Origin: an uncultured Pelagibacteraceae bacterium
Lineage (GTDB): Bacteria > Pseudomonadota > Alphaproteobacteria > Pelagibacterales > Pelagibacteraceae
NCBI GenBank assembly: GCA_902631255.1
Contig: CACOXS010000005.1
Location: 1-62,421 of the forward strand
Direction of reading: 5' to 3'
Length of the DNA stretch: 62,421 bases
The notes beneath the pieces are model-generated. The model saw only the letters and a list, made by a program, of their open reading frames with translations. It was not told where the DNA came from and made no database searches. Both the position numbers and the translations under genes were made by a program. Positions 6,800 through 12,727 of this stretch are shown here, in pieces (the first letter of the stretch is position 1; every line of letters starts with the position of its first letter).

Positions 6800-7459
6800 A
6801 TGACATTTTGCCTAGATTCAGTAATGATCAAACCAGAGACTAATAAAAGGATTAAAAATGCTATCATCTTACTTCATGGTTATGGTGGTGATGGCAAGGA
6901 TATTAGTATGCTCTCACTGAACTGGAAAAGACATTTACCTAATACTATTTTTATTTGTCCTAATGGTCATGAACCATGCAGTATAAACCCAAATGGATAT
7001 CAGTGGTTTGATTTAAGCAAAGATGATCCAGAGTATATTTTGGATCAATCTATAAAGGCTGAAAAAAAGTTATCAAAATTTATTGATGAAATTAAAAATG
7101 AATTTAATTTTGAAAATAAACAAATTTGTTTATCTGGTTTTAGCCAAGGCTGCATGATGTCAATAAACTTAGGACTTACTTCTGAAGAACCTTTTAATTG
7201 TGTTGTGGGTTTTTCTGGAAAAATTATTGATGAAAAGGATTTGAAATTGAGAAAAAAAAACTCATCAAGTATTTTGTTAATTCATGGTGATTCCGATCAA
7301 GTTGTATCGCCAAATTTTATGTTAGAGGCAAAAGATTTTTTTATGAGAAATAACATAGACATTGAGACGCATCTCATAAAAAATTGTGACCATCATATTC
7401 CTATAAATGCCTCAAGTATTGCATTGAATTATATCTTAAAAAAATTTAATAATTCCTAA
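6800..7459 (+). CDS. Carboxylesterase / phospholipase-like alpha/beta hydrolase
   Basis: A 219-residue serine hydrolase of the carboxylesterase/acyl-protein thioesterase family. LLHGYGGDGKD forms the oxyanion strand, GFSQGCMMS (about residue 111) holds the nucleophile, HGDSDQVV the acid, and CDHHIP the catalytic histidine. These proteins hydrolyse short-chain esters or lysophospholipids; the substrate here is unknown. There is no signal peptide, so it is probably cytoplasmic. The first ATG (6800) and an internal ATG about 24 bases later are both possible starts; the later one may fit the family better. Confidence 0.8.
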   Translation: MTFCLDSVMIKPETNKRIKNAIILLHGYGGDGKDISMLSLNWKRHLPNTIFICPNGHEPCSINPNGYQWFDLSKDDPEYILDQSIKAEKKLSKFIDEIKNEFNFENKQICLSGFSQGCMMSINLGLTSEEPFNCVVGFSGKIIDEKDLKLRKKNSSSILLIHGDSDQVVSPNFMLEAKDFFMRNNIDIETHLIKNCDHHIPINASSIALNYILKKFNNS

Positions 7460-7496: not shown

Positions 7497-8066
7497 ATGA
7501 ATAATTTTATTGATCAAGATGTTTCACTAGAAAAATGTCCTGCACTAGTTTTAAATGCTGATTATAGACCATTGAGCTACTATCCTCTATCACTATGGTC
7601 ATGGCAGGATACTGTTAAATCAGTTTTTTTAGATCGTGTAATTATAGTAAGTAATTACGATCGTGTAGTAAGAAGTCCTTCATTTAATATGCAATTGCCT
7701 AGTGTAATTGCTCTAAAAGATTATATTGTTCCTCAATCTAAACCAAGTTTTACAAGATTTAATGTTTTTCTGAGAGATAAATTTTCCTGCCAGTATTGTG
7801 GCAGCAACGAGGAATTAACTTTTGATCATTTATTGCCTAGATCAAAAGGTGGAGAAACTAATTGGGATAACGTCGTTACAGCATGTTCTGCTTGTAACGT
7901 TAAAAAAGGAGGCAAACTATTAAAATTATCGGGCATGAAACTGGCCCAACATCCTTATCAACCTTCAACAGAAGATTTACATCGTAATGGAAAAAATTTT
8001 CCCCCAAATTATTTACATAAAAGCTGGATGGATTATTTATATTGGGATGTTGAATTAGAAGCTTAA
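7497..8066 (+). CDS. HNH endonuclease family protein
   Basis: A 189-residue protein with a C-terminal HNH fold. CQYCG and CSACN form a structural zinc site, and FDHLLPRSKGGETNWDNV supplies the H-N catalytic residues. The N-terminal half (CPALVLNADYRPLSYYPLSLW) is typical of a widespread chromosomal HNH family in alphaproteobacteria that is not linked to phage or restriction genes. The biological role is not established. It stands alone between an esterase and coq7, with a 37-base upstream gap. Confidence 0.85.
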   Translation: MNNFIDQDVSLEKCPALVLNADYRPLSYYPLSLWSWQDTVKSVFLDRVIIVSNYDRVVRSPSFNMQLPSVIALKDYIVPQSKPSFTRFNVFLRDKFSCQYCGSNEELTFDHLLPRSKGGETNWDNVVTACSACNVKKGGKLLKLSGMKLAQHPYQPSTEDLHRNGKNFPPNYLHKSWMDYLYWDVELEA

Positions 8067-11512: not shown

Positions 11513-11633
11513 TTTTTTATAAAATATTTGATTATTTAGCGCATAAACACTAACTTTTTTACAATTTAAAATTTTAAAAAAAAAAAAATTAAATTTTAAT
11601 TTTAATTAAAAAATTTTCTTTCAAATTTAAGAT

Positions 11634-11660
11634 TTGACATAAGGCACATAAAAAAATAAA
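11634..11660 (+). promoter_or_regulatory. Candidate sigma-70 promoter for the basic peptide gene
   Basis: A perfect -35 hexamer TTGACA lies at 11634-11639, with an A/T-rich stretch at the right distance (aaaaat / aataaa, about 11652-11660) as a weak -10. The roughly 200 bases between the acyl-CoA synthetase and the peptide gene hold no other gene, only long A/T runs, this promoter and a palindrome. The -10 choice is uncertain. Confidence 0.4.
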
Positions 11661-11670
11661 AATAGATTAA

Positions 11671-11692
11671 AAGCGAATCAATTGATTCGTTT
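11671..11692 (+). promoter_or_regulatory. Palindrome in the leader of the basic peptide gene
   Basis: cgaatcaattgattcg (11674-11689) is a perfect 16-base palindrome, and outer A-T pairs across one G-T extend it to 22 bases. It lies downstream of the candidate promoter and about 10 bases upstream of a ribosome-binding-like aagggag. It could be an operator for a dimeric repressor or an RNA hairpin with a four-base AATT loop near the ribosome binding site. The sequence shows the symmetry; the function is inference. Confidence 0.5.
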
Positions 11693-11713
11693 AACTTAAA
11701 AAGGGAGCTAAAG

Positions 11714-11791
11714 ATGCCTAAGAGAAGAAAAAAAGCAAAGAAGGCTAAGAAAAAAGCTAAGAAAAAAGCTAAGAAAAGAAGAAGAAGATAA
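11714..11791 (+). CDS. 25-residue Lys/Arg-rich mini-protein, histone-H1-tail-like
   Basis: The frame encodes 25 residues: 13 Lys, 6 Arg, 4 Ala, 1 Pro and the initial Met. The pattern is MPKRRKK, then repeated AKKK units, then a terminal RRRR. Evidence that it is a real gene: a good ribosome binding site (aagggag, 11701-11707), a candidate TTGACA promoter upstream, its own strong terminator 22 bases after the stop, and no competing frame. The core is a 12-base tandem repeat (gctaagaaaaaa). The peptide should bind nucleic acid by charge, like an H1 tail or protamine, or act in the ribosome or nucleoid; I do not recognise a named family. A decayed or low-complexity coincidence is possible but the flanking signals argue against it. 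Confidence 0.7.
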   Translation: MPKRRKKAKKAKKKAKKKAKKRRRR

Positions 11792-11812
11792 TTACTTAGT
11801 ATTCTTTATTAA

Positions 11813-11856
11813 AAACGCTTCTCATAACGATTTACGTGTGAGAGGCGTTTTTTTTT
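11813..11856 (+). terminator. Bidirectional rho-independent terminator
   Basis: An inverted repeat pairs AACGCTTCTCA with TGAGAGGCGTT (one G-T pair), followed by nine T on the + strand and preceded by five A for the - strand. It ends transcription of the basic peptide gene from the left, and its last bases touch the carD stop codon (11855-11857), so it should also terminate carD from the right. Confidence 0.9.
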
Positions 11857-12727
11857 ATTCTTCTATATCTTCCTCATTTTCTGAAACAGCATCTTCTTCG
11901 GGTAAATCTGATGAAGCTTGTTTTATTGGTGCTGCTTCTGGTTTAGATTGAATATTTAAGTTTCTTTTTAAAGCTTTATCTAATTTTTTTTGAGTATCCT
12001 CTAATGACAAATTTAAAATTATTTGAAATTCCGAAAGAATTCTTTCATACGCTTTTTCAAAAAGCTGTCTTTCACTATAAGATTGGTCAACCATCAAATC
12101 ATCCCCTTTATTAAGATCTCTTACTACCTCAGCTAACTCATAAATCTTACCTGATGAAATCTTTGCCTCATATTCTTGTGCTCTCCTACTCCACATAGAT
12201 CTTTTTATTTTAGGCTTACTTTTTAATATTGAGATGCATTTATTTACCTGATTAATAGTTGCTAAAGGCCTTAAGTGAGATTGTTTGTTCACCGGACAGT
12301 ATCCCGTTGCCTTATCTTTATCATATGAAAGAACATAACTCTCCAACTCAATCCCTCCAATTATAGTTTTTTTAAAATCTATAATTTTGCAAACCCCGTG
12401 TTTTGGATAAACTACGTACTCTTTAACTTTATATTCTTTCTTTTGACTTTCTTGTTTTTTAACTTTTTTAATTTCTGGTTTAGCCTCATTATTTTTTGTA
12501 ATTCTTAAACCATCACTTTTGTGCTCTGTAGTTTTGACTTCAGATTTTAAAGATTTTTTTAAAGGTATTTTTTTAGTCTTAATTAATTTTTTTGGTAATT
12601 TATTAATCTTCTTTTTTACTTTTTTTAATTTAACAACCTTTTTGGTTTTTGCCTTTTTTTTCGATTTAGTAACTTTACTTTTTTTAAAGGTTTTCTTTAA
12701 AATACTTTTCAAACTTATTTTGTTCAT
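11855..12727 (-). CDS. carD: CarD-family transcriptional regulator with Lys-rich N-terminal tail
   Basis: CarD/CdnL proteins bind the RNA polymerase beta subunit and stabilise open complexes. The core starts near residue 98 ([18 protein letters not shown]), the Tudor-like RNA-polymerase-interacting domain. It continues into the helical DNA-binding part with [18 protein letters not shown] and the [19 protein letters not shown] segment. The first 95 or so residues are an unstructured Lys-rich extension reminiscent of histone H1, and the C-terminus is acidic (EENEEDIEE). Normal CarD is about 160-200 residues, so the tail is an addition. The ATG lies 44 bases inside fdxA; no later Met exists before the CarD core, so a shorter form would need a non-ATG start. 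Confidence 0.9.

Follow-up and report, generated by a model that had tools for sequence, protein, structure and literature searches.

The peptide gene and its neighbour carD

A gene for a short polybasic peptide lies at 11714–11791 on the forward strand of the window (the whole 62,421-nt stretch analysed here, from the uncultured Pelagibacteraceae genome G000, which is 57% complete at 719 kb). It is convergent with carD/cdnL (PF02559, PF21095), at 11855–12727 on the reverse strand, so that the adjacency to carD reported from the sequence-only reading holds. The translation of this Lys/Arg/Ala frame is MPKRRKKAKKAKKKAKKKAKKRRRR, of which, as claimed, 19 of 25 residues are Lys or Arg; the only hydrophobics are Met1, Pro2 and alanines. 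Three 12-base units (11744–11779) encode its AKKK repeats: GCTAAGAAAAAA occurs twice exactly, at 11744 and 11756, and a third copy at 11768 is one base off, in agreement with the internal repeat described earlier. No other ATG frame of 20–60 aa with at least 50% K/R is present in the 62-kb window, and 60 windows simulated from a first-order Markov model contained none. The peptide has no match in Pfam, in NCBIfam or among PDB sequences. When two f1 and two f2 forms (the two families are described below) were searched against Pfam and NCBIfam at E ≤ 10, two chance-level matches were returned (E 8.5 and 0.76, far under the cut-offs); low-complexity families are poorly served by such profiles.

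The −35 element of the promoter, the TTGACA seen earlier, is located at 11634–11639 with its spacing kept in relatives, and is separated by 18 nt from a weak −10-like hexamer (AAAAAT, 11658–11663) in an A-rich stretch that is kept in the genus alignment. The promoter is convincing because it is conserved; a scanner gave a window count of 4 against 3.4 ± 1.9 in shuffles, no excess, and is uninformative in AT-rich DNA. A predicted hairpin at the 5′ end of the mRNA (11671–11692; arms AGCGAATCA and TGATTCGTT) holds the invariant sequence CGAATC and folds at −9.6 kcal/mol (z −2.7). The ribosome-binding site that had been claimed is a Shine-Dalgarno sequence, GGGAG (11703–11707), six bases ahead of the ATG. 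Together with the start it forms GGGAGCTAAAGATGCCTAAG (11703–11722), a one-mismatch complement to the loop of the rhtB RNA (RF01814) of relatives.

Between the convergent genes is an intrinsic terminator, probably bidirectional (about 11811–11852, forward strand), with a fold of −21.9 kcal/mol (z −7.3) and, on the other strand, of −14 kcal/mol. It was unlisted by a consensus scanner whose loop limit is 8 nt. The terminator of the sequence-only reading is therefore real, and its description as the gene's own is not upheld: as it lies between convergent genes and folds on the other strand, it may serve carD too.

CarD has a Lys-rich N-terminal tail, as had been said of it, and an acidic C-terminus. 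The tail (12530–12727) is long in the window and in three relatives, and resembles the peptide in flavour. At 12260–12430, in the RID domain, the segment of the window is very unlike that of the close relative L136 (GVGQITEFKKINIGGIDVETYVIKFEKDKANGMVPVNKQ), the rest of the protein being mostly alike; recombination or local assembly mixing is possible.

Conservation, coding character and leader in SAR11

The peptide gene was sought by collecting carD matches in the window's order, SAR11 by its matching records, and reading their 3′ flanks. This gave 139 carD loci in 138 genomes, G245 contributing two. The window's genus (g1, the Pelagibacter group) accounts for 99 of these genomes, five other genera of family f1 for 18, and family f2 for 21. 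The f2 flanks come from 21 of the 32 f2 genomes with a carD match, and of the 113 f1 matches those of g1 were taken in part. With a complete gene defined as an ATG frame of 15–150 aa with at least 42% K/R and GGAG upstream, 134 of the 139 loci carry one, and the other five lie at contig ends; L050 and L060 hold the 3′ part of the gene only, and L076, L085 and L181 are contig ends. A direct sequence search with the peptide found 14 in 101 genomes, a low yield attributable to the bad scores of short low-complexity queries, and carD flanks revealed the rest.

A carD match was absent in 20 of 101 genomes and, in a second search, in 15 of 148, 10 of the 15 being among the 134 genomes with a completeness of 90% or more and a contamination of 5% or less. 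In 22 carD-less f1 genomes a start-pattern search gave eight matches, none of which is the peptide gene (all are rhtB RNA). An assembly gap would explain why gene and carD are missing together, as would joint loss of both.

A carD-independent scan of the genome collection with AGGGAGCTAAAGATGSCTAAR returned at least 120 loci. All 120 that were counted encode a peptide of 18–40 aa with at least 65% K/R, and among the matches listed (80) all belong to Pelagibacteraceae, Pelagibacter or Pelagibacterales. Of the 120 counted, five end before carD; where there is room, a convergent carD match lies 57–164 nt after the stop in 114 of 115. The lone exception is L276, where about 0.8 kb of inserted DNA, including part of an opposite-strand gene, separates the two. 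A mobile or phage gene was rejected on this adjacency and on the viral contigs, which gave 0 matches to the exact g1 pattern.

Of 144 genomes in the class, 129 have CarD_C, and in 49 carD loci of other alphaproteobacteria (some short, L120 most) no Lys-rich short frame was seen 3′ of carD. Candidates in these class-level flanks were rejected: they are chance frames, rich in arginine or mixed, apart from one H1-like stretch that continues into carD. The latter, at about 750–1150 of L114 (genome G108, another alphaproteobacterium), is a PAAKKAAAKK stretch that enters the 5′ end of carD/cdnL with a frame change within the repeats; it is either an H1-like tail fused to CarD and broken by a frameshift, or an H1-like gene of its own just before carD. 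In L128 (1494–1844; putative HIMB59) carD adjoins a 116-aa CxxC-type frame instead of a polybasic peptide, a small synteny argument against the former placement of HIMB59 within SAR11. The peptide gene may be a marker of the order, with none beside carD in L128.

The sequence-only reading had proposed conservation as its check, and the frame, promoter, leader hairpin, ribosome-binding site and carD neighbour are all kept order-wide. Of the flanking terminator, stem and T-run are kept in the genus alignment, and 126 of 134 loci pass a test for both (8 fail), against 38 of 134 reversed controls. The variation foreseen in repeat number is also seen, the number of units differing among relatives in whole codons.

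For the coding test, 46 g1 loci were reduced to 35 distinct DNA sequences encoding 27 peptides of 21–32 aa with 69–81% Lys/Arg. Ungapped close pairs of the 35 distinct frames differ 11, 43 and 81 times at codon positions 1, 2 and 3, and their changed codons comprise 83 synonymous and 48 non-synonymous cases, 41 of the 48 being exchanges between Lys and Arg; these counts are descriptive, as the pairs share ancestry and are not independent. A first-position A-to-G change turns the AAA codon into one for Glu. Acidic residues occur in no f1 peptide, and are found in 12 distinct peptides, all of them f2 forms with MEEL or MEDL starts.

Composition is steady across the order (K 53%, A 22%, R 15%, P 4% and T 2% over 63 distinct peptides) and length ranges from 21 to 99 aa, remaining within 21–38 aa except in f2 and in three of the four loci of genus g138. 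The g138 forms have 34–58 aa (MAKKRKKAAKKKAPAKKKKVAKKRKPAAKKKAPAKK...) and the f2 forms 40–99 aa (MEELKVIFAKARKKAKKKAAPKKKRKAAKRKPAKKK...), and both contain repeats like those of the H1 C-terminal domain, KAAPKKK and KPAAKKKAPAKK. The peptide of G248 is MATKKKAKKAKKKTKKKAKKAKKAKKRKR, and that of G244 is identical to the window's. The f1 and f2 sequences cannot be aligned; they are treated as one gene on the basis of their place beside carD, their leader and their composition.

The leader is kept as well. CGAATC is found in 133 of 134 leaders, the remaining one (L055) being cut, and its distance from TTGAC(A/T) is 32–35 nt in 111 of the 112 leaders in which both were found; given canonical promoter spacing, we infer that it stands at about +3 to +5 of the transcript. 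A fold with z < −2 was obtained for 81 of 93 distinct leaders (median −3.13) and for 5 of 90 upstream control stretches. The 3′ arm is GATTC in nearly all g1 leaders and GATTTG, with a G-U pair, in g139 and g140, and the leaders of g5, g137 and g138 have different, longer stems. Because the 3′ arm changes between genera, an RNA hairpin is favoured over a plain DNA operator; protein or methylase recognition may be another cause of the invariant 5′ arm. Covariation is modest: in 74 leaders of the simple type the flank pair is A-U in 48, G-U in 23 and G-C in 1, with two mismatches, and the second pair is G-C in 65 and G-U in 9.

Two GANTC sites in the leader palindrome of the window had prompted the idea of CcrM/GcrA cell-cycle methylation. 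This was rejected: paired GAATC-GATTC occurs one to three times in each of 12 genomes, a frequency close to that of the reversed control, and the second GANTC site is lost in other genera, where a hairpin persists. Methylation at the single invariant GAATC is possible. GANTC occurs 106 times in the window against 165 expected, and several palindromes of the same composition are likewise under-represented.

In minimum-energy folds of distinct leaders, most of the ribosome-binding site lies within a helix in 4 of 4 from g138, 2 of 2 from g5, 1 of 2 from g137 and 1 of 10 from f2, and in 0 of 66 from g1, 0 of 8 from g139 and 0 of 1 from g140. A second leader helix over the site was thus rejected as a general feature and is restricted to some genera. 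The f2 leaders (e.g., L065) have a strongly kept block, AACCTCTAACTAAACCC, before GGGGGGAG, that could pair with the ribosome-binding site; the site is covered in one of the ten f2 folds.

A 5′ hairpin and a terminator are also expected of an sRNA gene, and Rfam matches are present in 11630–11860, all far below their cut-offs. That the locus is no protein gene, being an sRNA, a chance purine-rich stretch with an incidental frame, or a leader peptide, is nevertheless hardly credible. Start codon, ribosome-binding site, frame and basicity are kept, length shifts in whole codons, third codon positions carry most of the change, acidic codons are missing in f1, and the simulated windows held no comparable frame. 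The Rfam matches over cut-off in the window are three tRNAs only. A leader peptide would have nothing downstream to control, since the next gene is the convergent carD beyond the terminator. A protein-coding gene for a peptide of nucleic-acid-binding type is strongly supported by these comparisons.

Among the matches listed in a search of the open-access literature (subscription papers and preprints being outside its scope) there is no report of the gene, and it goes unmentioned in the excerpts of PMC11109978, PMC2864753 and PMC5069961. None of the intergenic regions above about 26% GC in Table 1 of PMC2704228, as excerpted, is flanked by carD (that of the peptide gene has 21.9% GC); the supplementary list of missed coding sequences of that paper may include it.

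The rhtB RNA as a candidate regulator

A weak RF01814 match on the reverse strand at 11676–11741 (24.2 bits, cut-off 55) is explained by real complementarity of the rhtB RNA to the peptide gene and not by chance. The eight start-pattern matches in carD-less f1 genomes are themselves rhtB RNA, lying on the opposite strand and scoring 79–81 bits in the three loci tested (cut-off 55). The rhtB motif was described in 2009 as a single bulged hairpin with a conserved loop, located beside rhtB and other genes and followed by a U-tract in about half of the examples, its function being unknown in that description as excerpted (Meyer et al., PMC2704228). The loop, CUUAGCCAUCUUUAGCUCCCGG, is identical in 10 of 10 genomes (the eight carD-less ones, G248 and G244) and is antisense to GGGAGCUAAAGAUGGCUAAG, the ribosome-binding site and start of the peptide gene. 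In G248 the RNA lies at about 1,297,634, the published interval being 1297623–1297755 (PMC2704228).

Exact complementarity to the G248 RNA extends over 14 nt in 50 of 97 g1 leaders, 18 nt in 5 and 19 nt in 40, so that 95 of 97 have 14–19 nt; the remaining two have 10 and 11 nt. Outside g1 the longest exact stretch is 5–15 nt, and 390 control frames from g1 genomes never exceed 10 nt. The G248 duplex has a predicted energy of −42.9 kcal/mol against −36.5 for the best control, internal folding being ignored. Complementarity over the ribosome-binding site thus exceeds background in g1, as looked for in an antisense target. On the side of the gene, 46 of the first 49 genus loci carry GGGAGCTAAAGATG unaltered (two of the 49 are cut), and it varies in other genera. 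The block GGGAGCTAAAG, almost constant in g1, differs elsewhere, as expected if g1 alone has the rhtB RNA.

Both partners were located in one genome for G248 and G244 only. No covariation of loop and gene was seen: the G244 gene starts ATGCCT instead of ATGGCT and the loop is unchanged, leaving one mismatch. A pattern search of 676 of the 719 kb of the window genome (window included) found neither the rhtB RNA nor its neighbour gene; the RNA may be in the missing part of this 57%-complete genome. It was also not found in parts of G249 (80 kb), G245 (100 kb) and G342 (about 95 kb), stretches that were guesses at its place.

The RNA sites are in L325–L332, in L333 (about 7634–7680) and in L346 (about 6989–7035). 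In G248 and G244 the RNA adjoins a conserved gene (MKKKGH..RVKNPEP..WAAWADR), beyond which lie glutaredoxin- and MsrB-like frames; the gene on the opposite side varies between genomes.

The motif (RF01814) is tied to the peptide gene by a loop antisense to the ribosome-binding site and start codon of that gene; it differs in being a separate RNA near other genes, for which the 2009 description, as excerpted, gives no target (PMC2704228). The match suggests sRNA control of the peptide gene by the rhtB RNA, which in g1 would repress translation of the peptide by pairing over the ribosome-binding site.

Nature and possible role of the peptide

From its conservation and composition, we consider it somewhat more probable than otherwise that the SAR11 order has here a true small-protein gene, transcribed on its own and encoding an H1-tail-like polycation. 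Composition alone cannot tell binding of DNA, rRNA, polyphosphate or membranes apart. The peptide is Lys/Ala(/Pro)-rich and of low complexity, with KAAPKK repeats in f2 and g138, and its free length at fixed composition favours an H1-like tail over a ribosomal peptide. Protamines are small, polybasic and free-standing, as the peptide is, and are dominated by arginine, whereas the peptide is dominated by Lys and Ala and is bacterial. The sequence-only reading had likened it to both an H1 tail and a protamine; the longer orthologs sustain the first likeness, and the second fits the Lys/Ala composition less well.

The chlamydial proteins Hc1 and Hc2 are H1-like bacterial proteins. Similar tails are known on bacterial DNA-organising proteins such as AlgP (PMC9239181) and mycobacterial MDP1 (PMC5974015). 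Like these, the peptide consists of Lys/Ala(/Pro) low-complexity repeats of variable length, and the longer SAR11 orthologs have the KAAPKK/KPAAKK units. In contrast to them, it shows no folded domain, has its own gene by carD, was seen in one order only and is mostly 21–38 aa long, and in the window's form Pro is present at position 2 only. The f2 N-terminus has the sequence MEELKVIFAKA, a stretch unlike H1 that may hint at a specific partner.

A ribosome-associated mini-protein was the other role put forward earlier, and would place the peptide with eL41, bS22 and mS38 as a short basic helix between 16S rRNA helices. Those proteins keep to a narrow length range fitting one rRNA pocket. The peptide shares their size class and strong basicity, and a strong ribosome-binding site and a terminator suit a ribosomal protein; eL41 and bS22 are short helices with 55–65% positively charged residues, the bS22/eL41 site lies between h27, h44 and h45, and extra peptides of such kind occur in several bacterial groups (PMC10085706). 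We regard this role as unlikely, and a nucleoid role fits better: length varies nearly fivefold (21–99 aa), which a fixed rRNA pocket should not allow, and the window peptide is poor in the hydrophobics in which bS22 is rich (PMC10085706). It also lacks any Pfam, NCBIfam or PDB sequence match. Among 11 SAR11 genomes PF05162 (L41) was found in none, its model exceeding the cut-off in 0 of 14 controls, and PF08213 (COX24_C) in one, as a weak sub-cut-off match at another place, with 1 of 14 controls over the cut-off; a caveat to these negatives is the poor response of both models in control genomes.

The H1-like protein AlgP associates with granules of polyphosphate, which depend on it for regular spacing (PMC9239181), and this raises an AlgP-like role in polyphosphate binding. 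PPK1 was not found in the single-contig genomes G012, G244, G245, G248, G250 and G252, all of which keep the peptide, and this makes polyphosphate unlikely as a shared role; we rate such a role as very improbable. PPK1 (PF02503) is patchy in SAR11 (82 of 148 genomes of the order), and PPK2 was found in 0 of 14 genomes.

The neighbourhood of carD suggests a link with transcription. The arm of myxococcal CarD is reportedly of HMGA/H1 nature, and CarD is also said to be the bacterial transcription factor with HMGA- and H1-like domains. A dedicated partnership with CarD/CdnL or RNA polymerase, the peptide serving for instance as an H1-like DNA-binding arm in trans at promoters, would accord with the direct adjacency in 114 of 115 assessable loci (of at least 120), with the long Lys-rich CarD tail in four SAR11 loci, and with a reference title that names HMGA/H1-like domains in a bacterial transcription factor. 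In myxococcal CarD, which has a DNA-binding arm (PMC4374960), a basic arm is likewise linked to a CarD-family protein; here the arm would come from a convergent gene of its own, next to a carD of the widespread CdnL type. Such a partnership is nonetheless quite unlikely in our view. The genes are convergent with separate promoters, which precludes co-transcription, and despite the wide occurrence of CarD_C in the class the peptide is 3′ of carD in 0 of 49 loci outside the order. Neighbourhood is also weak evidence where, as in SAR11, gene order is very conserved in general (PMC3815206).

The product is probably a SAR11-specific, H1-tail-like polycation of the nucleoid. It would be a free-standing equivalent of the histone H1 C-terminal tail, an unstructured Lys/Arg/Ala polycation, joined in the longer orthologs by Pro and Thr. 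Made in quantity, it may bind DNA, and perhaps RNA, by charge, and coat or locally compact the nucleoid alongside HU-family proteins. Three HU-family genes are present in each of 14 genomes, so the peptide would add to HU and not replace a lost one. The leader hairpin may stabilise or regulate the mRNA, and the adjacency to carD/cdnL may reflect a shared role in transcription-linked chromosome organisation. The fuller scheme, an order-wide linker-histone-tail peptide whose translation is repressed in g1 by the rhtB RNA through the loop of its terminator-type hairpin, with a second leader helix covering the ribosome-binding site instead in some other genera, is put forward tentatively, as a possibility that we do not quite expect to hold in full.

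SAR11 bacteria, with their stripped genomes, rank among the most abundant cells on Earth, so a gene that persists in every assessable carD locus examined there is probably important. A polycation rich in nitrogen needs explaining in an organism limited by nutrients. The antisense match provides a testable target for an RNA motif that was published in 2009 without a function. What is plausibly new is a micropeptide with a gene of its own, a polybasic protein cut down to something like an H1 tail, for which an antisense RNA is the candidate regulator. Should it prove to be a nucleoid protein, it would be, at 21–38 residues in most species, among the smallest proposed, and would show how far an H1-like function can shrink.
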